Virus record (IMG/VR): IMGVR_UViG_3300013132_000077
Span: 1-48,368 of that record
Source of the DNA: a virus
Strand: one strand, 5' to 3'
DNA length: 48,368 nt
Shown: piece by piece, positions 7,988-36,428 of the stretch
How positions within the stretch are numbered: the stretch's first letter is position 1
Layout: each line of letters begins with the position of its first letter
Notes under the pieces: model-generated
What the model saw: only the letters and a program-made list of their open reading frames with translations
What the model was told of the DNA's origin: nothing
Databases searched by the model: none
Made by a program: the position numbers and the translations under genes

Positions 7988-9031
7988 TTATTTCAGTATT
8001 GTCGTGACCATCTTTTCCACTATGAGATATGGATCTCCATTGGATGCTGGCCTTCTGTCTTCTATGTATCCTATTGAATCTGGATCCTGTATCGTCGATG
8101 GTATTCTTATCGATTTTGTCCTGTCTCCTATTCCCCATCCGAATTTTTCTATCGATGATGTCTCGTTGGCTCCTGTCAGTCTGGCCTCGTTGTTCTTCCC
8201 ATACACTTCGATGTGCTCAGCGTGCTTCTCTCCTAGCTTTTCGCACATCTCTATCGCTATCATCATCTTGTTGAGCTTGTCTTCTCTTATTGTTTTTGTG
8301 GAAAAATTCACATGCATTCCAGAGCCGTTCCATTCGTTTCCTGCGAATGGCTTTGGATCTAGCTCTATTCTGTATCCATATTTCTCGCTCAATCTGTGCA
8401 GTATGTATCTTGATATCCAAAGCTGGTCGGCACCTTCTTCCGCTGTGACCGTTCCTACTTGGTATTCCCATTGTCCTAGAGCTACTTCCGCGTTTATTCC
8501 GGATATCGATATTCCTGCGGATATGCAGAGGTCTGCATGTTCCTCTACGAATTCTCTTCCAGCGACGTTGTTCGATCCCACTGAGCAATAGTATTCTCCC
8601 TGTTCTCTCGGGCTTCCTTTTTCTGGCCATCCTATCGGCTTTTTGGTCTTTTGGTCGAATATGAAGTATTCCTGTTCCCATCCCCACATCGTCTCGTCGT
8701 CGTATTTGGATAGAGCATCCACCATCTTTTTTCTGGTGTTGCTCTCGTGTGCCGTTCCGTCGGTGTTGAATACCTCGCACAGAACCAATATCGAATCTTT
8801 CGCGAAAGGATTCATAAAGTAGTTTTTCGGAATTAGCGCGAGCTCTGATTTTGAAGTCTCTGCTTGATATGTCGAAGATCCGTCGAAGTTCCATATGGGT
8901 GCCTTCTTCTTCTTTGACTTGTATTGCTTTAGCAGTCTTTTAGTTTCCGTGTCGCAGTCTATTATCTTTGTCTTTGATCTCAGCTGTTGGGTTTCGCATC
9001 CGTCTAGCCATATGTATTCCAGCTTCTTCAT
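7988..9031 (-). CDS. glnII: Type II (eukaryote-like) glutamine synthetase
   Basis: 347 residues, full length for GSII (about 350-370). It makes glutamine from glutamate, ammonia and ATP. Signature blocks are in order: WNFDGSST (47-54), SELALIPKNYFMNPF, GWEQEY (117-122, with metal-binding Glu119 and Glu121), GINAEVALGQWEYQVG (178-193), NGSGMHVNFST (235-245, ATP site), ARLTGANET (283-291), SIRIP (307-311) and EDRRPASNGDPY (324-335). All expected active-site residues that I can place are present, so it is probably active. It may raise glutamine for nucleotide synthesis or change host nitrogen control. It is probably co-transcribed with the small gene at 9049. Confidence 0.93.
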   Translation of the reverse strand: MKKLEYIWLDGCETQQLRSKTKIIDCDTETKRLLKQYKSKKKKAPIWNFDGSSTYQAETSKSELALIPKNYFMNPFAKDSILVLCEVFNTDGTAHESNTRKKMVDALSKYDDETMWGWEQEYFIFDQKTKKPIGWPEKGSPREQGEYYCSVGSNNVAGREFVEEHADLCISAGISISGINAEVALGQWEYQVGTVTAEEGADQLWISRYILHRLSEKYGYRIELDPKPFAGNEWNGSGMHVNFSTKTIREDKLNKMMIAIEMCEKLGEKHAEHIEVYGKNNEARLTGANETSSIEKFGWGIGDRTKSIRIPSTIQDPDSIGYIEDRRPASNGDPYLIVEKMVTTILK

Positions 9032-9220: not shown

Positions 9221-9853
9221 ATGAGTATAATTAAGAAGTTTAGTATTTTTGAATCGGTTAGAAGAACCGAAGTTCCAAAACATTTTATTCCACTAAATAG
9301 TATAGGATACTATCTTGATCCAAATGATGGAAATACATATGCTATGTTAAAGACCGGCGGTTATGAAGACGAACCTTATAGTGCAGAAGAATATCTTCAA
9401 GAAGATGAAGAAACCTGGGAAGAGCTTTCGGATGAAGAAAAAGACTTAGTAAACTCAGTTTGTAAAAGTTGTGAAGATATAGTAGAACCTTTTATAGATT
9501 GGAATCTAATAGAGGACATTAAAGATGTGGCTCTAGCAAACGAGATATTAGATAAAGGATATACTTTAAAAATAGAGGTCAAAGAACAAGACGTTGCAGA
9601 AAAAATCTATGTTGAATGGGTCGCTCACGACTACGACTATAAACACTATTACAAATTTTTCAAAAGTTTATTTAGTCAGATAGAAAACACCAATGGTGAT
9701 TTTTCTTATAATATATCTGTATATAGAAAAAACGGACCGGGTGGATATCTTCCGATGGCCAAAGGTTCAAAAGATGAGATAGATGTTTTAGAAATGATTG
9801 AACAGGTAAAAGATATGAATCCAGATAAAAGCATTTTTATGAAACAGGATTAA
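9221..9853 (+). CDS. Acidic protein of unknown function in an AT-rich island
   Basis: 210 residues. It starts MSIIKKFSIFESVRRTEVPK, a variant of the shared leader (F-E-S). The rest is acidic (EEYLQEDEETWEELSDEEKD) with no motif I recognise. Its codons (TTA, AGA, GAA, many A/T thirds) are more AT-rich than in most neighbours, and it is followed by a broken Smr gene and a TnpB remnant, so the stretch may be a recent arrival. Confidence 0.65.
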   Translation: MSIIKKFSIFESVRRTEVPKHFIPLNSIGYYLDPNDGNTYAMLKTGGYEDEPYSAEEYLQEDEETWEELSDEEKDLVNSVCKSCEDIVEPFIDWNLIEDIKDVALANEILDKGYTLKIEVKEQDVAEKIYVEWVAHDYDYKHYYKFFKSLFSQIENTNGDFSYNISVYRKNGPGGYLPMAKGSKDEIDVLEMIEQVKDMNPDKSIFMKQD

Positions 9854-15080: not shown

Positions 15081-16964
15081 TTAGAATCTAGTGAAGTTGA
15101 TCTGCTTCTTTTCCAAGTCTACCGACTTGACTACTACTTTGATAGGATCTCCAAGCCTTATCTGGTTTCCAGAGGCGTCGTATGCCAAATATCTGTCTGC
15201 GTCCGCTGTCCACTTTCCTTCGAGAGTCTCTATCCTTATCAGTCCTTCGCATTTGCTTTCCACGATTTCCGCGTAGATTCCTCTGTCGAGAACTCCGGTT
15301 ACTATAGCGTCGAAGACCTTCCCTATCTTGTCCTGTAGATATTCTGCCTGCTTGTACTTTATAGAGTCTCTCTGTGCTTTCGCCGCGATTAGCTCTCTGC
15401 TTGAGCACCATTTTGCCTGCTCTTCTATCTTTCCTGGATTTCCCTGCTTTCCGCTAGTCAGCTTGTCGAAAAGAATCCTGTGCGTTATAAGGTCTGGATA
15501 TCTCCTTATAGGAGATGTGAAGTGCGAGTAGTGTGTGAATCCCAGTCCGTAGTGTCCTATGTTCTTTATCGTGTATACCGCCTTTGACATGCATCTGGTA
15601 ACCAAAGTCTCTATCATGTTTTCTTCAGGAGTTCCTTTTATGTCCATTATGAGCTTGTTCAGGTTCTTTTTCAGCTGATCGCCTTCTTCCGATATCTCGA
15701 ATCCATATCCGAAGTTTTCGCATACTCCTTTTAGAGAAGCCAGCTTTTCCTCGTTTGGCTTGTCATGTACTCTATATACGTTGTGCCATTGGTCTCTAGC
15801 GAGAAGCTTGGCCACTGATTTGTTCGCCAATAGCATGTATTCTTCGATGAGCTTGTTGGCCTCTTTCTGCTCTTTGAAATAGACTCCTATTGGCTTTTTG
15901 TTGTCTTCTGCCAGCTTGAACTTAACTTCTATTCCGCCCATTTCTATAGATCCGTTTTTTATTCTAGCTTTTCTTATCCTTCGTGCCAGCCTGTCCAGCT
16001 CTCTTATCTCTTTGGAGTATTCTCCTTCCGATCCTTCTATTATGTCCTGTGCTTCTTCGTAGGTGAATCTCCTGTCGGAATGTATGATTGTTTTCCCATG
16101 CCACTCCTTCTTTGTCTTGCCTTCTTTGTCTAAGGTGAAGACCACCGAGAAAGCGAGCCTGTCCACGTTTGGCTTGAGCGAGCATATTCCGTTCGATAGC
16201 CTTTCCGGTAGCATCGGTACGCATCTGTCTACCAGATAGACGGATGTCGCCCTTCTGTATGCTTCTTTGTCGAGCTCTGTACCGAACTTGACATAGTGCG
16301 CGACGTCTGCTATGTGAACGCCCACATGTATATTGTCCGGGTCTCTCATGTCTATAGATATGGCGTCGTCGAAGTCCTTGGCGTCTACCGGATCTATAGT
16401 TATGGTAGTCACGCTTCTCATGTCTCTTCTGGATGCTATCTCCTTTTCGGTGATCACTTCTGGGACCATCTCGGATTCGTTGAGGACTTCCTGAGGGAAA
16501 TCCACTGGAAGGCCGTATTCGTACATTATGGCGTTCATCTCCGCGTTGTTCTCTCCTATCTCTCCCAATATCTTCTTTATCTCTCCTCTAGGAGACTTCT
16601 TTTCTGGGTTCCAGTCTATGAATCTGACCACTACTTTCTGTCCGTCTTTGGCATCATGTTCTCCTTTTATGTAGAAGTCTGCCGATATCCTTGGATTGTC
16701 CGCTATGACGAATGTGGTTTCTCCGTTCTTTTGAACCGTTCCTACAAACTCGGACCTGAATCTTTCCTTCACTTCCACCACTTTGGCCTCTAGCTTTTTA
16801 GGCCCTTTGAATATTTCAGCGGTCACTATATCCATATGCAGCGCGTTCAGCGTCTTTTTTCTGTGTATGAATATTTCCTTTCCTTCTGATTTTATGGTGG
16901 CGTTTCCTGACGACGTGAATTCTATCTGCGCGTCTATCCTGTCGCCCTCTTTTATTTTATTCAT
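15081..16964 (-). CDS. rnr: RNase R family 3'-5' exoribonuclease
   Basis: 627 residues. An N-terminal cold-shock-like part (to about 130) is followed by the RNB catalytic domain with TIDPVDAKDFDDAIS (189-203). Asp191, 197, 199 and 200 match the metal-binding acids of RNase II/R. Later come VHIADVAHYVKFGTELDKEA, SVYLVDRCVPMLPERLSNG and the HYSHFTSPIRRYPDL block. The C-terminal S1 domain begins at GKVFDAIVTGVLDRGIYAEI. It degrades RNA processively, including structured RNA. It is shorter than E. coli RNase R (813), lacking the Lys-rich tail and the N-terminal HTH. Bacterial RNase R degrades non-stop mRNA during trans-translation, and this phage also carries tmRNA. Confidence 0.93.
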   Translation of the reverse strand: MNKIKEGDRIDAQIEFTSSGNATIKSEGKEIFIHRKKTLNALHMDIVTAEIFKGPKKLEAKVVEVKERFRSEFVGTVQKNGETTFVIADNPRISADFYIKGEHDAKDGQKVVVRFIDWNPEKKSPRGEIKKILGEIGENNAEMNAIMYEYGLPVDFPQEVLNESEMVPEVITEKEIASRRDMRSVTTITIDPVDAKDFDDAISIDMRDPDNIHVGVHIADVAHYVKFGTELDKEAYRRATSVYLVDRCVPMLPERLSNGICSLKPNVDRLAFSVVFTLDKEGKTKKEWHGKTIIHSDRRFTYEEAQDIIEGSEGEYSKEIRELDRLARRIRKARIKNGSIEMGGIEVKFKLAEDNKKPIGVYFKEQKEANKLIEEYMLLANKSVAKLLARDQWHNVYRVHDKPNEEKLASLKGVCENFGYGFEISEEGDQLKKNLNKLIMDIKGTPEENMIETLVTRCMSKAVYTIKNIGHYGLGFTHYSHFTSPIRRYPDLITHRILFDKLTSGKQGNPGKIEEQAKWCSSRELIAAKAQRDSIKYKQAEYLQDKIGKVFDAIVTGVLDRGIYAEIVESKCEGLIRIETLEGKWTADADRYLAYDASGNQIRLGDPIKVVVKSVDLEKKQINFTRF

Positions 16965-17511: not shown

Positions 17512-19611
17512 ATGAAGCCAGTTTTAATAGTAGAGAATTCTACGAATTCTCTTGTTAGAGAAAGCGCTGCAGGAAAGAAGGACTATGTTATGAGCGGTAC
17601 GTTCACTGAATTCGGAGTTAAGAACCGAAACGAGAGGATATACACTGCCGACAAATTCCTTCCTGCTCTTCAGGAGATGAATGAGAGGATGAGCAACCTT
17701 GGGGTTGTGTACGGTGAGTTCGATCACCCGGATGTCTTCGACACTTCTCTTTCGCGCGCTTCTCACGTGATCACGAAGGCTGATTACGTGGCCGAGTCTA
17801 ACCTAGTGGCCGGAGAAATCAGATTGCTAAGCACTTATTGGGGAAAAGAAGCAAAGTCGCTCGTGGATGACGGGTGTCCTGTATTCGTTTCTTCAAGAGC
17901 GGCGGGCATCACCGAATCTGACGGAACCGTTTCGTTGAAGAAGTTATTCACTTACGACATTGTCGCGGATCCTGGATTCGCCTCTGCTAAGATGAACGTT
18001 AAGGTTCTGAACGAGTCGCTTGGCTACGCTAACCCGAAATCTAACTTTAGGATATATGAAATGTCCGATGAGTCTAAAACCGAAGAGTTATTCAATATGA
18101 ACAAAAACGAATTCGTCACAAAGCAGCAGCTTACTGACTATTCTCAGTATTTGGTGAAGGAGCTCGCCTCTACTAAGAGCGTCGTTAAGAACGCCATCAA
18201 GAAAGGTGACATGAATCCTAAGAAGCTCGAGCAATTGCTGGAATACTATGAGGAACTTAACAAGACAAACTCTCAAGTAGTTAAATATCTAGACTATTTA
18301 GCTGAGAAAGTTCAAGTTATGGTAAATGAAAACAAGTCTTTGAAAGAGACTACTAAAAAGCTTATCAAGCACAACGACTATCTCGCTGAGAACCTCGAGA
18401 AGGCGGTTAACTATTCCGAGTATCTCGCTGAGAACCTCGACAAGAACATCGCTTATTCCGAGTATATCGCTGAAAACGTGGACAAAAACATCTCTTATAC
18501 TGAGTATGTTGCTGAAAACGTAGACAAAAACATCTCTTACTCCGAGTATCTCGCCGAGAACCTCGACAAGAACATCGCTTATTCCGAATATCTAGCCGAG
18601 AACCTCGACAAGAACATCGCTTATTCCGAGTATATCGCCGAGAACCTCGACAAGAACATCGCTTATTCCGAGTACATCGCAGAGCATGTGGACAATTCTA
18701 TAGCTTATTCCGAATATTTGGCAGAGCACGTTGAAGGCAACATCGCTTATTCCGAGTACATCGCAGAGCATCTTGATGACAACATCGCATACTCTGAATA
18801 CATCGCTGAAAATCTTGACAAATCTATTTCCTACCAGGGATTGATCGTTGAGAAACTGAATGGCGGAAAATTGAATGAGTCTGCTGAAGGCGCTTTTCCT
18901 TCTCTTAATTCCGCAGGATTCGAAAGAGTTGAAGAAGAAGACGAAGAAGAAGACGAAAACGAAGACGCTTATTCAAACAACGGAATCGCAGAAGTCGCAC
19001 CTAACCATGTTGACGCTCACGAAGACGAAGAGGACGAAGAGGACGAAGACGAAGACTGTGGTCCTAGCAAATACGAAATCTCCGGACATTCTCACTCAGA
19101 ATTGTCCGAATCAATAGATAAACTTATCGAAGAAGCTACCAAACGTAAAGTTTCTGAGACATCCGACATGAATTTCTTGAAGTTTTTGTCAAAATCGCAA
19201 GTTGACAGCTTCTATGCTCTTACAAACGAAGAGCAGGAGACGGTTAAGCTACACATAAACGAAAGCAGCTACTTCACTCAAAAAGAAGTATTGTCTCTTA
19301 TCGCTGAAGCATTGTCTACTAAAAACGAGACTCTTGAAGAAAGAGTTATCAGAATGATGCCTGAAAACACAAAGGCTATCTGGAATCAGCTGAACGAATC
19401 CGCTAAGAAATCTATCTTGTCTCAAGCTAGACTCTACCCTGTTGAAGTTCTTCAGACTGAATCTCAAATCGAGCATTTCTGGGCAACTAGAAACCTCAAA
19501 ACAAACGAATCTGTTACAAAAAAGCTGGTTTCTCACGAAGCTCTTATCCAAGAAGATAAGCTGTCCGACAATGAGGTTTCCGCTATAATGGAAAGATTCA
19601 AAAACATCTAA
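17512..19611 (+). CDS. gp21-gp22: Fused prohead protease (gp21-like) and scaffold (gp22-like)
   Basis: 699 residues. Residues 1-165 form a gp21-type serine protease: SGTFTEFGVKNRNERIYTAD, GEFDHP (68-73, catalytic His72 likely) and VFVSSRAAG (Ser127 or Ser128 likely nucleophile). Then comes a helical scaffold with eleven 14-residue repeats of YSEYLAENLDKNIA type (287-440), an acidic stretch (EEEDEEEDENED) and a helical C-terminus. T4 makes the two as separate proteins (212 and 269 residues). Candidate self-processing sites of [IL]xE type, LNE-S, occur at 166-168, 454-456 and near the C-terminus. The late motif and A-rich leader fit high late expression. Confidence 0.85.
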   Translation: MKPVLIVENSTNSLVRESAAGKKDYVMSGTFTEFGVKNRNERIYTADKFLPALQEMNERMSNLGVVYGEFDHPDVFDTSLSRASHVITKADYVAESNLVAGEIRLLSTYWGKEAKSLVDDGCPVFVSSRAAGITESDGTVSLKKLFTYDIVADPGFASAKMNVKVLNESLGYANPKSNFRIYEMSDESKTEELFNMNKNEFVTKQQLTDYSQYLVKELASTKSVVKNAIKKGDMNPKKLEQLLEYYEELNKTNSQVVKYLDYLAEKVQVMVNENKSLKETTKKLIKHNDYLAENLEKAVNYSEYLAENLDKNIAYSEYIAENVDKNISYTEYVAENVDKNISYSEYLAENLDKNIAYSEYLAENLDKNIAYSEYIAENLDKNIAYSEYIAEHVDNSIAYSEYLAEHVEGNIAYSEYIAEHLDDNIAYSEYIAENLDKSISYQGLIVEKLNGGKLNESAEGAFPSLNSAGFERVEEEDEEEDENEDAYSNNGIAEVAPNHVDAHEDEEDEEDEDEDCGPSKYEISGHSHSELSESIDKLIEEATKRKVSETSDMNFLKFLSKSQVDSFYALTNEEQETVKLHINESSYFTQKEVLSLIAEALSTKNETLEERVIRMMPENTKAIWNQLNESAKKSILSQARLYPVEVLQTESQIEHFWATRNLKTNESVTKKLVSHEALIQEDKLSDNEVSAIMERFKNI
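18370..18831 (+). repeat. Eleven 42-bp tandem repeats in the scaffold region
   Basis: Units code for [YH]xxY[LIV]AExxxxxI[AS], for example YSEYLAENLDKNIA. Units 5, 6 and 7 are nearly identical in DNA (CTCGACAAGAACATCGCTTA), which points to recent duplication. Confidence 0.9.
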
Positions 19612-19698: not shown

Positions 19699-21426
19699 AT
19701 GTCACACATTAGAATAGACAAGGCGAAAGCCACTAAGAAATGGGCACCGGTTCTTGAGAACATGGGTGTTACAGGTGATAGAGTAGAATGGATGGCAGAA
19801 TATGCTGAGTTCCACTCAATCAACGAGAACGCGTACGTTAACGCATCTAACGTAGCTGGTATGGGCGGTGTATTCGCTGCGCAGCCTGCTGCATACGCTG
19901 GTAACACAATCGGCGGTTCTTTGGCGACTGCCAATTCAGTAGGTCAAATCGGTTCAGGAGATGTTGGTCAAAACCTTCTTCCAGTTGCGATGAAGATCGC
20001 TGCTCAGACTATCGGTCTTGATCTAGTTGCTGTTAAGCCAACTCCAGGTCCGAAAATCGACCTTCTTTACATCGATTTCCAATACGATGATACAAGATTA
20101 GGAAACTCTGACGAAAGACCACAGGTTTTCAAATTGAACACTACTAACCCTACTACAGCTGCTCTTGCTGCTGCTATGAAGAGTGGTAACGGTGCTTCTA
20201 TCTCTGAAGTAACAGGCGGACTTAGAAACGGAAGATTCTTCTACTCTATCAACGCTACAGGTACTGCATCTTTGGGTGCTACCGTATCTACAGACGAACC
20301 TAGCAGCAAAGCAGGTGTTGTTGAGTTCCTAGGATTCTCTAGGATCGACGGATTCCCAATCTTCAGGGCTTTCAGACAAGCAAACACTGCTCACGGTGTT
20401 GTAGGTTCTGCTAACACTGCTTGGGCTTTCGACTCACAAAGAAACACTTTTGGTGCTACTTCTTCCATGGTTTCTCAAATCGAAAGAATCGCAGGCGTTG
20501 CAATATCCGCTGCTACTATCGAATTGGTTTCCGCATTAGAAGACCATATCCCAGGATTCTCTACTAACTTTGGAGGAGTTCCTTCAGGCGCTGCACAAGG
20601 TGCATACCCAATGTCAAGGCAAGAAGACGATGATTCTTATGCAGGAGTTATCGGTCCTAAAATCTCTTCTAAAACTATCGCGGTTGGTACTATCGAAGTA
20701 TCTTCAGCTCTTAGAAGAACTGAGATCGAAGACATCAAGGCTAACACAGGTATGGATATCGTTCAAAAAATGGAATCTATCCTTGTTAACGAATTGTCTC
20801 AAACAATCTCTAAGCAAATCGTTGCTAAAATCTTCGAAATGGGTTCTCTTAACAGAAAGTCTGCTCCTTTGAAATCAGGATCTTCTTACTCTGATACAGC
20901 TGCTTGTACACTTTTCGACCTTGATACATCTTACGTTTCAACAATGGCCGGTGGTGAGACTACTCACGCAGTTCAAAGAAAGCTTATCACTAAGATAGCT
21001 CATGCTTCCAACTACATCGCGACTGAAGGACGTGTAGGTCCTGCTCAGTACCTTGTAACAAACGGAGGTCTTGCTGCTGCTCTTCAAGACATCGCTGGAT
21101 ACACAATCAACCCAGTTAAGTCTAAATTAAACGGACAAGGTCAATTATACCCTGTAGGTTCAATAGGCGACATCGCTATCTATGTTGATCCATACATGAA
21201 GTATAACGACAACAGGATCGTATTGGGTAGAAAGAACAACCCAGACCAACCAGGTATCATCTTCGTACCATACTTGATGGCTCAGTCTATCTCAGTTATC
21301 TCTGAGGCAACTTTCGCACCAAGGATGTTGTTGAGATCTAGATATGCGGTTGCTGAAATCGGATGGTTCCCACAAAAACAATTCATGACTCTAGTAGTTA
21401 CTGACGCTGCTCAGTACCTCAACTAA
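19699..21426 (+). CDS. gp23: Major capsid protein gp23
   Basis: 575 residues (T4: 521). It has the T4/HK97-type capsid order: a helical N-terminal arm, GQIGSGDVGQNLLPVAMKI, GLDLVAVKPTPGPKIDLLY and RRTEIEDIKANTGMDIVQKM. Near the end are ATEGRVGPAQYLVTNG, YVDPYMKYNDNRIVLGRK and SEATFAPRMLLRSRYAVAEI. A likely maturation cut lies after INE (41-43, SINE/NAY), an [IL]xE site like that used by T4 gp21. Codons are more strongly biased than in neighbours, as expected for the most abundant protein. Two shorter paralogues of its C-terminal part are at 27159 and 41586. Confidence 0.95.
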   Translation: MSHIRIDKAKATKKWAPVLENMGVTGDRVEWMAEYAEFHSINENAYVNASNVAGMGGVFAAQPAAYAGNTIGGSLATANSVGQIGSGDVGQNLLPVAMKIAAQTIGLDLVAVKPTPGPKIDLLYIDFQYDDTRLGNSDERPQVFKLNTTNPTTAALAAAMKSGNGASISEVTGGLRNGRFFYSINATGTASLGATVSTDEPSSKAGVVEFLGFSRIDGFPIFRAFRQANTAHGVVGSANTAWAFDSQRNTFGATSSMVSQIERIAGVAISAATIELVSALEDHIPGFSTNFGGVPSGAAQGAYPMSRQEDDDSYAGVIGPKISSKTIAVGTIEVSSALRRTEIEDIKANTGMDIVQKMESILVNELSQTISKQIVAKIFEMGSLNRKSAPLKSGSSYSDTAACTLFDLDTSYVSTMAGGETTHAVQRKLITKIAHASNYIATEGRVGPAQYLVTNGGLAAALQDIAGYTINPVKSKLNGQGQLYPVGSIGDIAIYVDPYMKYNDNRIVLGRKNNPDQPGIIFVPYLMAQSISVISEATFAPRMLLRSRYAVAEIGWFPQKQFMTLVVTDAAQYLN

Positions 21427-21442
21427 TCAGTCTTAATGATAG

Positions 21443-21477
21443 GAAAATGTCGCTCTATGGGCGGCATTTTCTTTTTT
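21443..21477 (+). terminator. Terminator after the capsid gene
   Basis: AAAATGTCGC pairs with GCGGCATTTT (one T-G pair), then CTTTTTT. Confidence 0.85.
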
Positions 21478-21490
21478 ACGCATTGTGGAA

Positions 21491-21501
21491 AGAATATATA
21501 G
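21491..21501 (+). promoter_or_regulatory. Late-type motif AGAATATATAG
   Basis: Ends 3 bases before the ATG at 21505. Confidence 0.45.
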
Positions 21502-21504
21502 TAT

Positions 21505-21897
21505 ATGGGGAATATAGATAGCTTCGACTCGTTCTTCGAAAAGAAGGACAAGTTTCCTGACATAAAGAACTTGGACATAGACGGATTTGTCGTCTATATG
21601 GGCAGAGATGCCAAATCCAACGACTACCTGACATTCAATGTCGCTGACGAAGAGGATATATGGATGCACGCGAAAGGAGTTCCAGGAAGCCATGTCGTCA
21701 TACGAGTAAGAGAATCTCTTCCTACCGAAGAAGTGATAAAGAAGGCGGCGGCACTTGCCAAGAAGAACAGCAAAGGCAAGGATAAGGACAGAATCACGGT
21801 GGTATACTGCCAGAGGAAATTTGTCAATAAAGATCCTGGAATGAACGACGGCCAGGTGAAAGTCGACTATATAAACGCTAACGAAATAAAAATATAG
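21505..21897 (+). CDS. Single-domain NFACT-R (DUF814) RNA-binding protein, RqcH-related
   Basis: 130 residues that match the NFACT-R domain of RqcH/Rqc2 almost end to end: DGFVVYMGRDAKSNDYLTF (26-44), ADEEDIWMHAKGVPGSHVVI (47-66) and the AAALAKKNSK helix. In bacterial RqcH this domain binds tRNA and rRNA on split 50S subunits, while the NFACT-N, HhH and coiled-coil parts recruit Ala-tRNA; all of those are absent here. It could compete with or redirect host RqcH, or bind structured RNA in another role. It has its own late-type motif and ends 2 bases before the peptidase at 21900, so the two form an operon. Confidence 0.85.
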   Translation: MGNIDSFDSFFEKKDKFPDIKNLDIDGFVVYMGRDAKSNDYLTFNVADEEDIWMHAKGVPGSHVVIRVRESLPTEEVIKKAAALAKKNSKGKDKDRITVVYCQRKFVNKDPGMNDGQVKVDYINANEIKI

Positions 21898-21899
21898 AT

Positions 21900-23333
21900 A
21901 TGGCAGAAAAAAAGCATAAGATGGAGTTTTCAAAAGAGCTCGAGCAGATTTTAGCAAAGCTGGAAAAGCAGGGAAACTACGTCGCGTGGGAGCTGCTCCT
22001 TATGAACGATCCTGACGCGGGGTCAGAACTTGAGGACATAATACACAAATCTGGCGTCGAGAGAGTAGACGTTTCTGAAAAGGACTACAGCTTTGTCGTG
22101 GAGACCACTGACGGAAAGAAGACCGAGATGAAGATCGGCGCCTTCATAAGAAAGTTCTTCGGCGACTTCTATGCGAACCATGAGATAGAGAAATTCTCCA
22201 ACCTATACAACATTGCAAAAGGTGGTGGCAAGAAGAAAGGAGAGCCTATAAAGGTCGGCAAGTTCTCGTATGATCCTAAAGACGTTAGAAAGACCTTTCT
22301 TTCTCTGGTGACCAAGACCTATCCTCATGGACATGAGGATGAGCTGCTTGAGTTCCTTCCTGAGCTCAAAAAAGACCGCGTCGGAAACTACTACGTCATG
22401 ATAGGCGGAGATAAGCCTGAAACCATGTTCACTTCGCATCTAGACACCGCGGATAGATCGCAGAGGACTACATATCTCTTCAGCGACAAAGAAGGAGAAG
22501 ACGAAATCATAGTGACTGATGGAACTTCGGTGCTGGGCGCCGACGACAAGTCTGGCGTGACCGTAATGCTTTATATGATGGCACATGGAATATCCGGGCT
22601 ATACTATTTCTTCATAGGCGAAGAAAGAGGCGGCATCGGATCGCACGCGCTTGCGGACATCTTCGAAGAGGTCCCTTACCTTCACAATCTAAAGAGATGC
22701 GTTTCTTTCGACAGGAGAAACTACCATTCCATAATAACTTCCCAGATGGGTGGCGAATGCTGCTCGGATGAGTTCGCGGAAGCGCTTTGCGACGCGTACA
22801 ACCAGCATGGAATGAGCATGAAGCCAGACAATACTGGAATATATACAGACTCTGCTTCCTTCATAGACGATATACCTGAGTGCACCAACGTCTCCGTTGG
22901 ATACTTCAACGAGCATACCGGTAACGAGAAGCAGAACATATCTTTCCTGGAGAGGCTCTGCAAGGCATCTGTCTCCATAGACTGGGAATCTCTTCCGACC
23001 AAAAGGTCTCTAGAGGAGATCATCTCGTTCAGGGCGACTGAGAAGGCGGCGCGCTCGAGATATAAAGACCTGCTTGATGAGTTCAAGTCTGCCGCGCCTT
23101 CTTTGGATCGGCTTGTTTCCGTGGAATATGGAAAGACCTATGTCTGCTTCGACCTCGAAGGGTCGGACCTCGCCACGATACATGATACGCTGGAATCCAT
23201 ATTGGCGGTTATGAAGACCACCAACAATCGTCCTGAAATCGCTAAGTCTGTTCATACCTACGAACACAACTGGAGGGCAGGAAACTGTCCTGTGGAATTC
23301 GACGAGACCTATCTGAAGATAAGAATAGAATAA
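21900..23333 (+). CDS. M20/M28-like zinc metallopeptidase (copy 1)
   Basis: 477 residues. A 120-residue N-terminal extension precedes the peptidase core. The zinc and catalytic residues are in FTSHLDTAD (His180, Asp182), VLGADDKSG (Asp215/216) and GEERGGIGS (Glu241, Glu242); a later His in FNEHTG completes the set. The core is strongly similar to the protein at 44135, which lacks the extension. It probably cuts short peptides or acts as an aminopeptidase; a virion role is also possible. The extra C-terminal 110 residues (from FRATEKAARSRYKDLL) are unassigned. Confidence 0.85.
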   Translation: MAEKKHKMEFSKELEQILAKLEKQGNYVAWELLLMNDPDAGSELEDIIHKSGVERVDVSEKDYSFVVETTDGKKTEMKIGAFIRKFFGDFYANHEIEKFSNLYNIAKGGGKKKGEPIKVGKFSYDPKDVRKTFLSLVTKTYPHGHEDELLEFLPELKKDRVGNYYVMIGGDKPETMFTSHLDTADRSQRTTYLFSDKEGEDEIIVTDGTSVLGADDKSGVTVMLYMMAHGISGLYYFFIGEERGGIGSHALADIFEEVPYLHNLKRCVSFDRRNYHSIITSQMGGECCSDEFAEALCDAYNQHGMSMKPDNTGIYTDSASFIDDIPECTNVSVGYFNEHTGNEKQNISFLERLCKASVSIDWESLPTKRSLEEIISFRATEKAARSRYKDLLDEFKSAAPSLDRLVSVEYGKTYVCFDLEGSDLATIHDTLESILAVMKTTNNRPEIAKSVHTYEHNWRAGNCPVEFDETYLKIRIE

Positions 23334-23348
23334 AAAAAACGAATTGAG

Positions 23349-23744
23349 ATGAAAATCAAGAGATATGATAGATATATAGCAGAAGAGTCCGAATGGGATG
23401 ACGAATATCCATATGACGACGCCCAAGAAGAAGATGAAGATGAAGAAGAAGACGACGATGTGGCGCAGCATCTTCTTTATCTTTTGAGGTCCTATCTTTC
23501 CAAGGCGGGCATAAAGAACGCCGATGTCAGAGGAAACGCCGATGTCATAAAGATGGAGATAACTATGTCCAAAAAGGAGAATATGGCGGCCGTCATATCC
23601 ACTTTCGCGACTCTCAGAAAGATATCTGAAGAGATATTGCCGGACTACGACTGCGAGTTCGACATATGGAAGAACAAGAAGGGCGAGCCTCTGCTGATAC
23701 TCGACTTCTATTCCGAAGACGCTATGTCCGACGATGTTTTTTGA
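23349..23744 (+). CDS. Acidic protein with a leader-like N-terminus
   Basis: 131 residues. MKIKRYDRYIAEESEW resembles the T4 capsid-targeting leader (basic, aromatic, then E). It is followed by a very acidic run (YDDAQEEDEDEEEDDDVAQ) and a small alpha/beta domain. No motif is recognised. It starts 15 bases after the peptidase and is probably co-transcribed. After its stop comes the tmRNA promoter region. Confidence 0.65.
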   Translation: MKIKRYDRYIAEESEWDDEYPYDDAQEEDEDEEEDDDVAQHLLYLLRSYLSKAGIKNADVRGNADVIKMEITMSKKENMAAVISTFATLRKISEEILPDYDCEFDIWKNKKGEPLLILDFYSEDAMSDDVF

Positions 23745-26229: not shown

Positions 26230-27162
26230 ATGAGTGTTATAAGTTATTTTGGTGGCAAGGCCGCCTTTCAATCGTTCATAACTCCAAAGATTCCATTCAA
26301 AGAGTGCAAAACATATCTAGAGCCTTTCTCTGGATCTTTCGCCATATATCTGGATTCCAAGATGGAGTTCGAAAACGTGATATTCAACGACCGCAACAGG
26401 CATCAGGCCAACCTGATGAGATGCTGCGCTTCTCCGCAAGAATTCCTCGTAGAGCTGAAGGCTCTCTTGGCGCCAGGCGGGCTTCTGCATACTGTCGAGA
26501 CGTCGGTCGACAAGAAGTGGGACTTCTACAAGGCGATCTACCACAGATACGTTAAGAACGAATTCCTGGACAACATGGACTTCGAGATAGGAGACTTCAA
26601 GGTCGCCGCCATCTACGCGTTCCTCATCACTTCTTCGTTCTCGAGCGTCTATCCTAGAGGCGGCGGATTCACCGGATTCAAGAAGAAGAAAGACAAGCTC
26701 AACCTCTCTATACTTATAAACAAGCTAGAGAAGAACAAATACACCGACAGGCTGCAGAACATCACGGAGTTCAACAACATGGACTTCGAGGAAGTCATAC
26801 TCAAGCACGACTCGGAAGACACGTACATCTATCTGGATCCTCCATATGCTCGATTCAACGACGTCAAGAACGACGACGATGGCAGACGCCTGTTCTGGTA
26901 TGGGTGCGACGACGAGAACACGTTTGGAGTCGCTTCTCACAGGAGGCTTCTCGAGCTTCTGAAGACCACTAAGTCTAGATGGTCTCTGTCATACTACTAC
27001 TTCCCTCTTCTCGAAGAGATACTTCCGAAAGACAAATATGTCTGGACTTCTAAAGAGTTCCACAGGCCGTCCGCTGTGATAAAGACAGAAGGCGTGGAGA
27101 AGGAGAAAGGCGTCGAGCTGCTCATCATGAACTACGATCCCGAAACAGGAGAAAGAGTATGA
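26230..27162 (+). CDS. dam: D12-class DNA adenine N6-methyltransferase (Dam-like)
   Basis: 310 residues. It opens with SYFGGKAAF (AdoMet-binding motif X), EPFSGSFAIY (motif I), and has the catalytic motif YLDPPYARF (DPPY). An insert around 205-220 (NDVKNDDDGRRLFWYGCDDE) follows DPPY. It methylates adenine, target unknown, probably to guard phage DNA from restriction. The stop overlaps the start of the capsid-like gene (ATGA). Confidence 0.9.
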   Translation: MSVISYFGGKAAFQSFITPKIPFKECKTYLEPFSGSFAIYLDSKMEFENVIFNDRNRHQANLMRCCASPQEFLVELKALLAPGGLLHTVETSVDKKWDFYKAIYHRYVKNEFLDNMDFEIGDFKVAAIYAFLITSSFSSVYPRGGGFTGFKKKKDKLNLSILINKLEKNKYTDRLQNITEFNNMDFEEVILKHDSEDTYIYLDPPYARFNDVKNDDDGRRLFWYGCDDENTFGVASHRRLLELLKTTKSRWSLSYYYFPLLEEILPKDKYVWTSKEFHRPSAVIKTEGVEKEKGVELLIMNYDPETGERV

Positions 27163-27908
27163 TCGACGATATAAGGAAGGCAATAGAAGAAGGCAGGTTC
27201 GACATCTTCGAGCCTGCCGGATTCGTTAAGAAGCGAGCTTGCGGAAATCCTGAGAGGCTCAGGATTTCGTTCGGAGTTCCGATAGACGCATCGGCAGTCT
27301 TCGGCCTGAACGTCGACATGGTCGCGGAGTTCTTGGCGCAGCTCAGGAGAGGCGTTTCGGACCAATGTCACAAGAAGATATTCGGTTCGCTGTCTGGTTC
27401 CGAGAGATATTCGGTTCGCGACCTCAGAGGAATTCCGGAATTTATGGTGGCGAAAGAGCTGATTTCCGAGATAAAGAATTCCGGATTCAGGTATGTGCTG
27501 GCTGGATCCAGGATCGCCACCATTCTCCAGGACTCCAGCGAGTTCGTCATATCTTCCGATTCTCTTTCTTCTATATCGAAGAGCAATTCCAACGTGCATA
27601 TGATAGGAAGCATATACGGCTACCAGGACGTGTATCTGGACCCCTATATGAAGTGGAACGACTCTCGCGTTATCCTATTCTCCGAAGCGAACGCCCTCGC
27701 TTCTGGATTCAAGCTGGCCGAGGCAGCGGACGAAGCGACCTTCGCGCCGAGGATAATAATAGAGATGTCTCTAGAGCATTCTGTTGGAGATTCGATGGTG
27801 CTTTATGTGAGAGACGACGAGAATCCTGACCTAGATCCTGGATTGATAGCGCGGATGAGAGACCAGAAAATAGACAATCTGCTAGATGAAGAAGATAAGA
27901 GAAGCTGA
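27159..27908 (+). CDS. Shortened paralogue of the major capsid protein C-terminus (copy A)
   Basis: 249 residues. GSIYGYQDVYLDPYMKWNDS and RVILFSEANA, then DEATFAPRIIIEMSLEHSV match the capsid segments GSIGDIAIYVDPYMKYNDNR and SEATFAPRMLLRSRYAV. The start (KAIEEGRFDIFEPAGF) and the end (DLDPGLIARMRDQKIDNLLD) differ. The N-arm and most of the E-loop/A-domain of gp23 are absent, so it cannot be a full capsomer. It could be a vertex or decoration protein, or it could interfere with other phages' capsids. It is coupled to the methylase by ATGA. Confidence 0.75.
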   Translation: MIDDIRKAIEEGRFDIFEPAGFVKKRACGNPERLRISFGVPIDASAVFGLNVDMVAEFLAQLRRGVSDQCHKKIFGSLSGSERYSVRDLRGIPEFMVAKELISEIKNSGFRYVLAGSRIATILQDSSEFVISSDSLSSISKSNSNVHMIGSIYGYQDVYLDPYMKWNDSRVILFSEANALASGFKLAEAADEATFAPRIIIEMSLEHSVGDSMVLYVRDDENPDLDPGLIARMRDQKIDNLLDEEDKRS

Positions 27909-28424: not shown

Positions 28425-28452
28425 AAAAGAGAGCCAAACGGCTCTCTTTTTT
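28425..28452. terminator. Bidirectional terminator
   Basis: AAAAGAGAGCC pairs with GGCTCTCTTTT around AAAC; separates convergent genes. Confidence 0.88.
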
Positions 28453-28657
28453 ATTTCTTCTGGAACATCCCGTCCAATACCTGGTACATCGCGTCTGCGA
28501 CTCCGTACGAGTCCGCGCCAAACTTCCCAGAATATTTGTCGGCTATGTCCATCATGTCCTTTTCCAGTTCTGACCAGACGTCTTTCTCCTCTTTTCTCTG
28601 GTCTCTCAGGACTTCGTCCCAGTCGAACTCTTCGTTGAATCTCTTTAGATGCTTCAT
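28451..28657 (-). CDS. Small helical protein with the MKHLKRF leader
   Basis: 68 residues: MKHLKRFNEEFDWDEVLRDQ, then acidic helices and a C-terminal MYQVLDGMFQKK. The leader belongs to the set seen at 1397-2452. No other motif. Confidence 0.65.
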   Translation of the reverse strand: MKHLKRFNEEFDWDEVLRDQRKEEKDVWSELEKDMMDIADKYSGKFGADSYGVADAMYQVLDGMFQKK

Positions 28658-30577: not shown

Positions 30578-32836
30578 CTATTGGAAGTATAGAGTGCATG
30601 CGAATCTTATGGCGGTCGCGGTTCCTGTTGGGTTCGCGGGCATTGTGGATATGTCCGCGGTGTTTGTTATTCCAAACGCGATGTCCGATATTCCCACGTC
30701 GTATACGGTCCTCCATGATGTTCCTGCGGGATAGTGTCCTACTACTATATCTTCTCCCGCTGTTAGACTAAGGCTTTGTCCAGGCGACGCTGTCAGGTTT
30801 ATCACGTTTGGTCCTATTCCGCAAAGCGCGCTTCCTTGTCCTATAAGAGTTTTCGTTCCTGTTAGAGTTCCTCTGTATATTCCAAAAATTACCGTGTCTG
30901 ATCCTGAGAATCCCCACAACTTTGCTTTGTTTATGGTTCCAGTCACTTCCGATATTGTTTGATAGTAGTATTGCGTCGTCGCCGCAGTCGGGGCGCTATC
31001 GCATGCCGATACGCTCATCGGGGAAAAGCATATTCCATTTGATATTCCTGAAGTTCCTGAAGATCCATCGATTCCGCTCGTTCCTGAAGTTCCGTTCTTT
31101 CCAGAGGTTCCTGAAGTTCCGCTTGTTCCGGAGATTCCAGAAGTTCCATTGATTCCAGAAGTTCCTGAAGTTCCGCTTGTTCCTGAAGTTCCGCTTGTTC
31201 CGGAGATTCCTGAAGTTCCATCGATTCCAGAAGTTCCTGAGGATCCATCACCTCCAGTTGGTCCCAACTGTGTGTACATTACTTGTGTGAAAGTCGATAT
31301 AACGCTTGGTGTTGCTGGATGTTCCGGATTTATACCTGATGGTAAATATTCTATTGAAACATTTGTGCTATCGCTGTGCCACCATAGTTCTACATAGTCG
31401 TTATGGTTAATTGATGTTCCTACATAATTAACGGTTGCGACGGTATATCCAAACTCTGTGGAGTTTTTTCTAGCAGGCACGTGAAATCTCGTGGTGCTGT
31501 TTGGATAATCAGAACCATTATATTTTAACCAAATATCGGCATAGTGAATTTCATTATCAATATTTTTCAATTGAATAGAATATATCATTGTATAAGTTCC
31601 AGGATTGCTTATTACAATTGATCCAGTTCCAATTATTGAAAATCCTGATGATCCTAAATCTGTATTTATAGCGACTATTTGCGTTTGGCCGGGTGCTAAG
31701 AATGGTTGATCAGTCGTATCTGCGAAATTTCCATAATATCCCAAAGCTCCGCCTGCACCATTAATTCCAGATGTCCCAGAAGTCCCGTCGATTCCAGATG
31801 TTCCAGAAGTCCCGTCGATTCCTGAAGTCCCGGAGGTCCCGTCGATTCCTGAAGTCCCAGAAATCCCTGAAGTCCCAGAGGTTCCGTCGATTCCAGATGT
31901 CCCAGAAATCCCGTCGATTCCAGATGTCCCAGAAGTCCCGTCGATTCCTGAAGTTCCAGAAGTCCCGTCGATTCCTGAAGTCCCAGATGTTCCAGAAGTC
32001 CCGTCGATTCCTGAAGTCCCAGAGGTTCCGTCGATTCCAGAAGTCCCAGAAGTTCCAGATGTGCCGTCGATTCCAGAAGTCCCAGAGGTTCCGTCGATTC
32101 CTGAAGTCCCAGAAATCCCTGAAGTCCCAGAAATCCCTGAAGTTCCAGAAATCCCTGAAGTTCCAGAAATCCCTGAAGTTCCAGAAATCCCTGAAGTTCC
32201 AGAAGTCCCAGAGGTTCCGTCGATTCCTGAAGTCCCAGAAATCCCTGAAGTCCCAGAAATCCCTGAAGTCCCAGAAATCCCTGAAGTTCCAGAAATCCCT
32301 GAAGTTCCAGAAGTCCCAGAGGTTCCGTCGATTCCAGATGTTCCAGAAGTCCCGTCGATTCCAGAAGTCCCAGAAGTCCCAGAAATCCCTGAAGTCCCAG
32401 AAATCCCAGAGGTTCCGTCGATTCCCGAAGTTCCAGAAGTCCCAGAAGTCCCGTCGATTCCAGATTTCCCAGAAGTCCCAGAAGTCCCGGATGACCCAGA
32501 TTTCCCTATTAGCATTTTTTGCCAATGTGTTGAGTCTTCTTCTGGCGATTGCCATGGCGATGATCCTTCTAATGTCTTTATATTAAGATATGCGGATTCG
32601 TTATATGTGACCAGGTCATAATAGAAATACATCATCATAGAATCCCATTCTCCTTGGAATACTATCGAGTTTCCTTGTGGGCCGGTCGGGCCCTGTGGTC
32701 CTATCGATGCTGTTCCGATTCCAATTTCTAGAAGGTTTCCAAATCCGTCATAGTATGTGTTTGGATTTCCAAGAACGACCTGCACGAGTCTCCCATAGGT
32801 TTGCGAGGCGGTAGATCCAGTAAGATTGTAGCTCAT
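30578..32836 (-). CDS. Collagen-like tail fibre or adhesin with GTSG repeats
   Basis: 752 residues. An N-terminal domain (1-110) includes a short GPQGPTGPQG collagen piece and a CBM5/12-like pattern (YYDLVTYNESAYLNIKTLEG). A long G-x-x repeat of GTSG/GIDG/GISG follows (about 111-357). Then come a jelly-roll-like domain (FSIIGTGSIVISNPGTYTMI...), a second repeat block (about 525-600) and a C-terminal domain with FSPMSVSACDSAPT. Trimeric collagen-like shafts with knobs are usual in host-binding fibres. Ser and Thr make up close to half of the repeat positions, an unusual density of possible O-glycosylation sites. Divergent late-type motifs lie just upstream. Confidence 0.85.
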   Translation of the reverse strand: MSYNLTGSTASQTYGRLVQVVLGNPNTYYDGFGNLLEIGIGTASIGPQGPTGPQGNSIVFQGEWDSMMMYFYYDLVTYNESAYLNIKTLEGSSPWQSPEEDSTHWQKMLIGKSGSSGTSGTSGKSGIDGTSGTSGTSGIDGTSGISGTSGISGTSGTSGIDGTSGTSGIDGTSGTSGTSGISGTSGISGTSGISGTSGISGTSGIDGTSGTSGTSGISGTSGISGTSGISGTSGISGTSGISGTSGIDGTSGTSGIDGTSGTSGTSGIDGTSGTSGIDGTSGTSGTSGIDGTSGTSGIDGTSGTSGIDGISGTSGIDGTSGTSGISGTSGIDGTSGTSGIDGTSGTSGIDGTSGTSGINGAGGALGYYGNFADTTDQPFLAPGQTQIVAINTDLGSSGFSIIGTGSIVISNPGTYTMIYSIQLKNIDNEIHYADIWLKYNGSDYPNSTTRFHVPARKNSTEFGYTVATVNYVGTSINHNDYVELWWHSDSTNVSIEYLPSGINPEHPATPSVISTFTQVMYTQLGPTGGDGSSGTSGIDGTSGISGTSGTSGTSGTSGTSGINGTSGISGTSGTSGTSGKNGTSGTSGIDGSSGTSGISNGICFSPMSVSACDSAPTAATTQYYYQTISEVTGTINKAKLWGFSGSDTVIFGIYRGTLTGTKTLIGQGSALCGIGPNVINLTASPGQSLSLTAGEDIVVGHYPAGTSWRTVYDVGISDIAFGITNTADISTMPANPTGTATAIRFACTLYFQ
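31765..32506 (-). repeat. Long collagen-coding tandem repeat
   Basis: 9-bp-based repeats (plus strand GAAGTTCCA, GAAATCCCT, GTCGATTCC) over about 740 bp. Longer blocks recur with few changes, for instance around 32100-32300, a sign of recent expansion. A second, shorter block is at 31040-31255. Confidence 0.9.
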
Positions 32837-34245: not shown

Positions 34246-35145
34246 TTAATTTATTTTTTTTATTTCTTCTATCATTAGATTCATGTTTTCCGGATTTTTC
34301 TCTCCATGGAAGAACAGAAGATCCTCCTCCATCCCCGGAATCGCCACCCATTCTCTCACGTAATTCTTGTTTCCTGTGAATCCTATAGAGTATGCTTCTT
34401 CTATGGAAGTCGCTCCTATGTTGACGTACATATATGGAATTCCTCCAAATGCCTTTTTCTTCCATAGCAGCACGTTCGCTATCGTCTCTTCGTTGAAGGG
34501 CGCGTATAGCCAGCAGTTTTCGGATATTTCTGGATCGGAGCACATCTCGTGCCATTCTTTCAGGAAAGGAATGCAATTTTGGCCGGATACGAAATATCCT
34601 GTCTGTCTGTAATCTTTCCTTACGGTCTGGTCTACTCCGAAGAATTCGCATGCTGGGTGTTCTAGGCTTCTGGTGAAGTCATCTCCGTAGATTCCGCCTC
34701 TTCCGCCCATGAATAGAACATCGTATATTCCTTCTACGAAGGATGGATATTCTTCTTCTGCATTTCGCATATCGAATATTCTATCCACATGCTTTGTTGC
34801 GACCGAGTCCGCGTCTATGTACGCCGCCTCTTCTGCGAAGTTTTCAAGCGCGTGCCTGACTACAGATGGTCTCTGTATAAGCATGGAATAGATGCTTTTG
34901 TTAGTCCTGTTTATATAGAAATTTTCTCCGTCGATAAAATATCTCTGAGAATCATCTTCCATCACGTTGCAGTCCCGTCTTATTGTTTCTACGCCATCTA
35001 CATCTATTTTTCTGTCCGAATTCATTACGTATGCCACTATGGGTATCTGGCTATATGTCCTTATAGATTTCGCGCACATCTCTGCCGTAGGAACGTATGC
35101 TTCGTCTGAGTAGATGACATAGCATCTTTTGTGTTTTCTATGCAT
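34246..35145 (-). CDS. Glycosyltransferase (GT-A type, nucleotide-sugar)
   Basis: 299 residues. RCYVIYSDEAYVPTAEMCAK is a typical GT8-like start, and AAYIDADSVATKHVDRIF holds a DxD metal/sugar-nucleotide site. A GGRGGIYGDDF loop and NTGYF-like YRQTGYFVSGQNCIPFLKEW segment follow. The donor and acceptor are unknown. It overlaps the heptosyltransferase-like gene by 8 bases. Confidence 0.75.
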   Translation of the reverse strand: MHRKHKRCYVIYSDEAYVPTAEMCAKSIRTYSQIPIVAYVMNSDRKIDVDGVETIRRDCNVMEDDSQRYFIDGENFYINRTNKSIYSMLIQRPSVVRHALENFAEEAAYIDADSVATKHVDRIFDMRNAEEEYPSFVEGIYDVLFMGGRGGIYGDDFTRSLEHPACEFFGVDQTVRKDYRQTGYFVSGQNCIPFLKEWHEMCSDPEISENCWLYAPFNEETIANVLLWKKKAFGGIPYMYVNIGATSIEEAYSIGFTGNKNYVREWVAIPGMEEDLLFFHGEKNPENMNLMIEEIKKIN

Positions 35146-36421
35146 TTTTTTTCCTTGTCAATATTATGTCTTCGGATCCTACGCTCCATTCTCCGGAATA
35201 TCCTTCTATTATATCGTAATCTTCTGATAGATATGACAGTATTCTTTTCCTGTCTGATTTGTTCATATCTTCTCTCTCTACCAGCCCGCTAGTGAGTATC
35301 CTGTCTATCACCATCTGCCCGGTTATCGACTTGCTGCATTCGAACTGTCTTGGAGTTCCTTTGTGGTCGGGACACCAGTTCCAGTCTCCTGGATCGAATT
35401 GGTGTCTGGACCAGCAGTCGTTGCACACGCTCTTGTTGGATATCCTGACTACTCCTTCTTGTGGCTCAAGCGCGTCCGCGGTGAATCCGGATATCAATAC
35501 CGTCGGTATTTCCAGAGACCATGCCAGCCAGCTGAGTCCGCTGCTTATTCCTATGAAGAATTCGCATGAAAGAAGATTGGATATAAGGTCTTCCACGCTT
35601 TCTTCTTTGAGCTTTTTGGCCCCTTTCGGAAAGAAGTTTTCCATATATCCGTCGCTTTCCTTCGACATTATCGCGACTTCGTATCCTCTCGATATCAGAA
35701 AGTCGGTCACTTCTTGCCATCCTGTAGGATTGTTCCAATATTTTGTCTGCGCTGTAGAGTGGAAGCCAATTCCGACTCTCTTCTTCTTCTCGAAAGCGGG
35801 CTTCGCTATCTTTGGCCTAGCTTCGCTCTCTTCGAGTCCGAGTATGTCTGTCGCTATTTTTATCAGCGATATCTTCGCTGGATTTGTAGGGTGCATGCTG
35901 TAGTTCGGGCCTCCGTCTTTCTTGAAGAATCCAAGCTTGTATGTTGCGTATGTTTCCGCGACGGCCGTTCCTGGACTGACGAACTCGATCTCTGGATATT
36001 GAGACTCGAACAGGCTGTTCCAAAACGTAGAGCATATCAGCTTGCAGTCCCATTTCTTCCTGAACTCCTCTGCTCTAGGAAACCATGCCATCGTGTCTCC
36101 GACCGATTTGGAGTCGAGAACTATATAAACTCGCTTTCCTTTCGCGTCGTATTTCTTTTCATAGATGCATCTTTCTATGTCTAGGTCCCATACTCTGCAG
36201 GTATATTCTTCGAAATATTTCTTGTTCGTCCTGCACCACATATTGGATTCTATCTCTGTCTTGAACTCTATGTTTCCCGAGGCGTCTATTATTTCCACTC
36301 TGAATCTTTTGTCCAGAGACGATGTCACTTCTACGTAGGCTCCGTCGTTGAAGTTCATATTGACTTTCACGTCTTTGAACTCTCTTATTATGTTGTCGTT
36401 CTTTATCAGCGATCTGTACAT
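35138..36421 (-). CDS. Autotransporter heptosyltransferase-like glycosyltransferase (TibC/Aah family)
   Basis: 427 residues. After a beta-rich N-terminal part (NMNFNDGAYVEVTSSLDKRF) comes a GT-B fold: VYIVLDSKSVGDTMAWFPRA, VGIGFHSTAQTKYWNNP and GISSGLSWLAWSLEIPTVLI (291-310). Four cysteines are spaced C333-x2-C336-x13-C350-x11-C362 within NDCW, NWCP and FECS, the iron-binding pattern of bacterial autotransporter heptosyltransferases. Those enzymes put heptose from ADP-heptose on Ser of repeat adhesins (TibA, AIDA-I). Here it lies in an operon with other sugar enzymes beside the Ser-rich collagen-like fibre. The last 50 residues are an extra part. Confidence 0.8.
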   Translation of the reverse strand: MYRSLIKNDNIIREFKDVKVNMNFNDGAYVEVTSSLDKRFRVEIIDASGNIEFKTEIESNMWCRTNKKYFEEYTCRVWDLDIERCIYEKKYDAKGKRVYIVLDSKSVGDTMAWFPRAEEFRKKWDCKLICSTFWNSLFESQYPEIEFVSPGTAVAETYATYKLGFFKKDGGPNYSMHPTNPAKISLIKIATDILGLEESEARPKIAKPAFEKKKRVGIGFHSTAQTKYWNNPTGWQEVTDFLISRGYEVAIMSKESDGYMENFFPKGAKKLKEESVEDLISNLLSCEFFIGISSGLSWLAWSLEIPTVLISGFTADALEPQEGVVRISNKSVCNDCWSRHQFDPGDWNWCPDHKGTPRQFECSKSITGQMVIDRILTSGLVEREDMNKSDRKRILSYLSEDYDIIEGYSGEWSVGSEDIILTRKKNA

Positions 36422-36428
36422 TTTATTT

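Follow-up and report, generated by a model that had tools for sequence, protein, structure and literature searches.

A stand-alone NFACT-R protein is encoded among the head genes of a T4-like huge phage, of which we analyzed a 48-kb fragment (48,368 nucleotides, hereafter the window). We tentatively propose that this protein resides inside the head, is processed and is co-injected with the genome as an RNA- or ribosome-binding protein. The proposal draws on features that can be read in the sequences, namely the domain itself, the missing parts of RqcH, fixed synteny, purifying selection, an N-terminal motif with an invariant glutamate and a gene for a prohead protease. Two uncultured, unannotated phages, LR756502 (642 kb) and LR745206 (635 kb), are the closest records that carry a name, and no other named phage record has a true relative. 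The features of the window that bear on the argument are as follows.

17512-19611, plus strand: prohead protease of gp21 type with a fused scaffold built of repeats (phrog_207, head maturation protease, 7e-29)
19699-21426, plus strand: gp23-type major capsid protein (MCP; Pfam Gp23, 2.6e-28), with a likely propeptide cut at SINE/N
21441-21473, plus strand: intrinsic-terminator-like hairpin between MCP and NFACT-R (-19.7 kcal/mol, z -4.77)
21495-21500, plus strand: TATATA box, a putative phage promoter element, 4 nt upstream of the NFACT-R ATG
21505-21897, plus strand: stand-alone NFACT-R protein (ATG start, 130 aa; Pfam PF05670)
21505-21540, plus strand: predicted capsid-targeting or propeptide segment MGNIDSFDSFFE, with a predicted cut after Glu12
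21577-21864, plus strand: NFACT-R domain core (PF05670 profile match) with the DIWMHAKGVPGSHV motif, common to RqcH
21900-23333, plus strand: PepT/M28-like metallopeptidase (phrog_4191, peptidase, 4e-66; PepT-like, 3e-8)
23349-23744, plus strand: acidic protein with a CTS-like N terminus, starting MKIKRYDRYIAE/E

The NFACT-R protein and its family

Residues 25-120 of the window protein cover positions 8-110 of the 112-position Pfam NFACT-R_1 profile at 62.2-62.3 bits against a cut-off of 29.8 (7.4e-17), and NFACT-R_2 likewise exceeds its own cut-off. By phmmer against PDB sequences, the protein matched B. subtilis RqcH (4.2e-17), S. suis FBPS (1.5e-11) and human CCDC25 (1.4e-6), and a profile built from 34 phage NFACT-R sequences matched RqcH at 1.8e-24; the solved structures matched by sequence were 7aqc, 5h3w and 7eoe. 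The core D-[IL]-W-x-H-x-[KR]-x-x-x-G-[SA]-H is present in phage and cellular proteins alike, the phage family keeps the motif DIWMHxKGxPGSHV, and D51, W53, H55, G58 and P60-G61-S62-H63 are invariant in 34 of 34 aligned phage homologues. On these matches an NFACT-R fold is predicted for the window protein.

Only NFACT-R families scored above cut-off in the 130-aa ORF, which contains no NFACT-N, HhH or coiled coil. An S4 domain, expected of an RqcP-type partner, was absent from LR745206, LR756502 and G002, and one was present in G001, in a 265-aa ORF. Because NFACT-N, HhH and coiled coil are missing and neither named relative encodes an S4/RqcP-type domain, the predicted domain content rules out alanine tailing by the phage protein alone through the known mechanism. 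A preliminary description of this DNA had noted a complete domain standing by itself without the parts needed for alanine tailing, and it was right on both counts. No PHROGs or PADLOC model matches the phage NFACT-R protein.

A single profile scan of IMG/VR gave 79 viral loci, which with the two phage records make 81 and with the window 82; together they encode 56 distinct NFACT-R proteins, that of the window included. The gp23-type MCP is the preceding recognizable gene in all 80 loci with upstream room, and the PepT/M28-like peptidase is the next gene in all 79 with downstream room, which bears out the pairing with a metallopeptidase put forward earlier. In seven loci the gap from MCP to NFACT-R frame is 0.8-2 kb. 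Each of 12 long phage records has one NFACT-R match, and none of the 12 has an RqcH-size frame with this domain, the largest open frame being 248 aa. Over 1060 pairs the median dN/dS was 0.23, and the gene is under purifying selection. Given 79 loci, two phage records and this ratio, the lone domain is far beyond chance and not peculiar to one contig.

In locus L008 (9617-10333), and also in L050, L052 and L053, the NFACT-R frame is fused in frame to an upstream ORF, with the tag-like segment internal. Matches in Enterococcus and MT835503 "phage" records were rejected, being full-length bacterial RqcH and thus host DNA in the record. The deposited records OR846587.1 and MT835503.1 are likely cases of host contamination, and Listeria "phage" records (OR847059.1 and others) give partial matches of like kind.

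Origin of the domain and likely hosts

Cellular relatives were sought in 84,980 genomes, and the closest found were the NFACT-R domains of long (mostly about 535 aa) RqcH-type proteins. Their carriers are full-length RqcH of Balneolota, Rhodothermota and Bacteroidota, mostly the first and the last; the phage domains are about 40-50% identical to Balneolota/Bacteroidota RqcH and have AKSND and EDIWMHARGVPGSH stretches in common with the closest RqcH-type proteins. Tree building placed the phage domains in a single clade (100/100) within the Balneolota/Bacteroidota RqcH neighborhood, the exact sister being weakly supported. This topology points to a single phage origin of the lone domain, which most likely derives from an RqcH-type protein.

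NFACT-R occurs in 155 of 198 Bacteroidota genomes, nearly always within proteins of about 500-600 aa; among the matches listed there is one short frame, of 135 aa, at a contig start. The lone form is therefore phage-made, and the idea that it is a normal host gene was rejected. Al-Shayeb et al. predicted Bacteroidetes hosts for those of their phages larger than 634 kb (PMC7162821), among which we infer LR745206 and LR756502 to be, and Bacteroidota are the likely host phylum of these phages. With NFACT-R in that share of genomes, RqcH would be present as a possible competitor in most likely hosts.

Head genes and expression signals

Besides its PHROGs assignment, the protease gene has a weak Peptidase_S77 match (0.003). 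Codons 291-433 of the same ORF carry [LIV]AE[NH] at 14-residue spacing; the 14-residue repeats, EY[LIV]AE[NH]LDKNIAYS, each with a gp21-type cleavage motif, also occur in LR745206 (198546-200669), so that the fused scaffold is seemingly built for shredding by its own protease. In the MCP, SINE-NAYVN is found in 26 of 27 distinct N termini listed (L008 has QINE), at the place where T4 gp23 carries FLTE/A. The cuts predicted in the MCP (INE/N) and in the scaffold repeats ([LIV]AE/[NH]) seem to share a preference with that of the NFACT-R N terminus. The acidic protein at 23349-23744, whose LR745206 homologue starts MKINKYKKFLE, is a possible prohead core protein.

Several other genes of the window deserve mention. 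A second phrog_4191 PepT/M28-like peptidase is encoded at 44135-45274, and the head-side copy has an additional N-terminal part of about 150 residues. A short second gp23-like protein (27159-27908), downstream of a Dam-like gene, is conserved in relatives. A full RNase R-like protein (15081-16964, minus strand) lies between portal and protease and is present in LR745206, with no tblastn match in 20 kb of LR756502. A glutamine synthetase-like protein (7988-9031, minus strand) comprises the beta-grasp and a partial catalytic domain. Glycosyltransferase and FkbM methyltransferase genes (34246-38063, 42313-43074 and 30578-32836, all minus strand) adjoin a collagen-like tail fiber and perhaps serve fiber glycosylation.

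The hairpin downstream of the MCP gene is followed by a T-rich stretch and has counterparts in both 640-kb relatives (L008 and L009). A TATAWA box lies within 30 nt of the NFACT-R ATG in 74 of 75 loci; genome-wide in LR745206, it precedes 260 of 686 genes against 153 in shuffled sequence. Because a terminator-like hairpin closes the MCP gene and the box is so conserved, NFACT-R is probably under its own promoter, more than a rider of the capsid operon. The "late head operon" described earlier thus holds as a head gene cluster, and a single operon with the MCP is to be treated with care, given the intervening hairpin. The "late-type site" is real as a site, in the form of the conserved box; box and terminator indicate separate expression and not its timing. 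A sigma-70 promoter scan was at chance (17 found, 16.8 expected). The window contains no tRNA or tmRNA, and Rfam gave no known structured RNA in it or in the 40 kb of LR745206 around the NFACT-R gene.

A capsid-targeting-like N terminus

Ahead of the domain, the family carries a short segment such as MRNLKKFNNFLKE/GKKDKFP, MIKNYQLFLE/SKKDKFP, MVKRFKKFLE/S or MKHLKQFE/S (slash, predicted cut). T4 IPII and IPIII start MKTYQEFIAE/A (read from AF158101). The T4 capsid-targeting sequence (CTS) is a 10-residue N-terminal peptide in which residues 4 and 7 (Tyr, Phe) mainly direct targeting and residues 8 and 10 (Ile, Glu) direct processing, the gp21 motif being L/I-x-E (PMC9026906), and foreign proteins can be packaged by means of it (PMC7697877, PMC3012670). 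In the phage family, the glutamate that ends the segment is invariant in the 34 aligned homologues and the FxxF spacing is kept; an aromatic pair, 0-2 residues, Glu and then Ser or Gly make up a pattern found in nearly all of the 56 distinct proteins. Most members retain the aromatic-xx-aromatic spacing, and relatives such as FNNFLKE/G show the exact T4 spacing. Ser or Gly follows the Glu in 55 of the 56, the exception being the window itself (MGNIDSFDSFFE/KK), whose copy (FDSFFE/K) is the weakest of the family, with neither a basic residue nor a small residue after the cut, and does not match the strict T4 pattern. Cleavage after Glu12 would leave 118 aa. The predicted mature phage proteins are basic (family median pI 9.3, charge about +5; window pI 8.9).

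We defined the strict pattern from T4 IPIII alone, as [FY]xxF[IL]xE within the first 15 or so residues. It matched 18 of 893 N termini in LR745206 and 11 of 559 in LR756502, for which internal positions gave expectations of about 0.7 (0.68) and 0.25. Among 144 T4 genes tested it found IPII and IPIII only, and it matched none of 335 bacterial genes and no gene of the window. Looser forms matched 122 of 893 and 95 of 559 N termini in the two phages, versus 10 and 6 in shuffles; MK[YH][LI] opens 9.6-14.3% of genes versus 0.2-0.3% of internal Met. By the loosest pattern about 14-17% of genes have a CTS-like start, chance being about 1%. A mere bias toward Lys-rich starts was rejected on the strength of three controls (internal Met, any position and shuffling) and of the 335 bacterial genes.

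Tagged genes were listed for LR745206 (L124-L155) and for positions 1-400 kb of LR756502 (L213-L232). Their starts include MKYLKxFNES, MKHLK.. and MIKKYLDFIKES, and most of the proteins are of unknown function. Those of LR745206 that can be named include a CCA/poly(A) polymerase-type enzyme, a T4-type (Rnl1-type) RNA ligase, a 2'-5' ligase/Acb1-like protein, a NUDIX protein and an RNase T-type exonuclease, as well as lysis-like enzymes (GH108, M15). In the window, tag-like N termini (MKHIRKFEKF, MKYLKLFEGF, MRYLKTFES, MSIIKKFSIFES and MKHLKRFNEE) open five further genes, at 1397-1993, 2095-2322, 2452-3111, 9221-9853 and 28451-28657 (the last on the minus strand), none with a Pfam match. The neighboring PepT/M28-like peptidase has no CTS-like N terminus, and a packaging tag shared by the two neighbors was dropped as an explanation of their pairing.

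Because the motif is in such excess and similar sites stand in the protease repeats and the MCP, the predicted tag and cut are most simply read as a T4-type CTS. This N terminus, which the preliminary description did not notice, makes plausible the link between NFACT-R and the virion.

Proposed role and alternatives

In the mechanism we propose, the first 12 or so residues would act as a T4-type CTS and carry the protein into the prohead core, where the gp21-type phage protease would cut after the conserved Glu and leave a basic NFACT-R protein of about 118 residues beside the DNA. Ejected with the genome at infection, it would attach to large ribosomal subunits, tRNA or both in the newly infected cell by a conserved RNA-binding surface that derives from a Bacteroidota-type RqcH, and might protect or redirect translation ahead of any phage gene expression. 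Packaging, cleavage and ejection, taken jointly, are in our judgment somewhat probable. Given packaging, a ribosome or tRNA target is fairly probable, and is the more weakly inferred part. In NEMF, NFACT-R is part of the C-lobe, which cups the anticodon stem of the tRNA and, close to the central protuberance, makes contact with the large subunit (PMC4321881). In RqcH-50S structures the domain is poorly resolved and located beside the A-site finger (PMC8012679). We favor early binding of large subunits or tRNA by a packaged, cut and ejected protein because the phage domain is basic, keeps the family signature and has these contacts in NEMF and RqcH.

Two serious rivals keep part of this scheme and discard the rest. 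The protein may never be packaged: a cytoplasmic and perhaps late product could bind ribosomes or mRNA to the benefit of phage translation, or could free ribosomes that stall while capsids are being made, the tag being a general leader of the lineage with another role. The separate TATA box and terminator would suit such a product, as would the many translation genes of huge phages (PMC7162821), and since the motif stands, in its loosest form, on about one gene in six or seven, including lysis-like enzymes unexpected inside heads, it may indeed serve another purpose. Yet it fits both the targeting and the processing residues of the T4 CTS and ends in an invariant protease-type Glu, and we regard a purely cytoplasmic role as unlikely. 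Slightly more unlikely, to us, is that the protein is packaged through its CTS and simply binds the packaged DNA, for charge neutralization, ordering or transport, with no specific host target. The preliminary description had likewise suggested that the domain might be adapted to bind packaged RNA or DNA. The NFACT-R domain of CCDC25 binds DNA, and the mature phage protein has the pI and charge for it. T4 internal proteins are basic (PMC9026906), and their lysines contact packaged DNA phosphates (PMC3012670). A mere counter-ion, however, would not need the signature residues of an RNA-binding family, which are kept, and the other tagged proteins are RNA enzymes.

The preliminary description also offered, as one possibility, a dominant inhibitor of host RqcH. 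The lone domain would then sit on the 50S where the NFACT-R of RqcH does and prevent alanine tailing. The probable descent from an RqcH-type protein, the long NFACT-R protein of most Bacteroidota genomes and the absence of tailing parts from the phage would all accord with such a competitor. In RqcH-50S complexes, however, the position of NFACT-R near the A-site finger is defined only loosely (PMC8012679), and because it is so poorly resolved there, a domain on its own would not have to be a strong binder or competitor; the claim is left unsupported and we hold it very unlikely.

The injected-protein reading can be extended to the other tagged RNA enzymes of LR745206, which fit an injected RNA-repair and counter-defense kit. 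In its broadest and more doubtful form, this reading would have some 100 different proteins in this clade of huge phages, or roughly every seventh gene by the loosest motif, tagged, packed and injected as a takeover and repair kit that includes RNA ligase, CCA/poly(A) polymerase, NUDIX, Acb1-like anti-CBASS and exonuclease proteins. The lone NFACT-R would be a constant ribosome- or tRNA-binding part of this kit, guarding or capturing host translation during the first minutes.

Comparison with known systems

If the CTS reading is true, huge phages would inject a large cargo of proteins, predictable from genome sequence alone, and this cargo would include part of the ribosome quality-control machinery. 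The contents of huge virions and the seizure of translation would then become testable questions, and an NFACT-R working without the remainder of RqcH would be useful for finding NFACT-R ligands. Our literature search of open-license papers found neither a phage stand-alone NFACT-R nor a capsid tag on one; the parts are known and the combination is new.

Viral NFACT RNA-binding domains are described for prasinoviruses and coccolithoviruses, as proteins of unknown function for which a hijack of RQC has been suggested (PMC11467894, PMC10222054). Those viruses have eukaryotic algal hosts, and the parts of these reports considered here mention neither capsid-gene synteny nor a targeting tag. CCDC25 and other eukaryotic NFACT-R proteins also have the domain without NFACT-N, whereas the phage protein stops about 10 residues past the domain and bears a phage-type N-terminal tag. 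With RqcH, Rqc2 and NEMF it shares a homologous domain, the motif DIWxHxKxxPGSHV and the sequence identity given above, but lacks their NFACT-N, HhH and coiled coil and, in LR745206 and LR756502, an S4 partner. T4 IPI-III and Alt are processed by gp21 and co-injected, whereas for NFACT-R packaging and cleavage are predicted from sequence; its mature domain is unrelated to theirs and its gene adjoins the capsid gene. In common with them it has a short N-terminal [FY]xxF...E/ peptide, a small basic mature protein and a gp21-type protease encoded in the same gene cluster.
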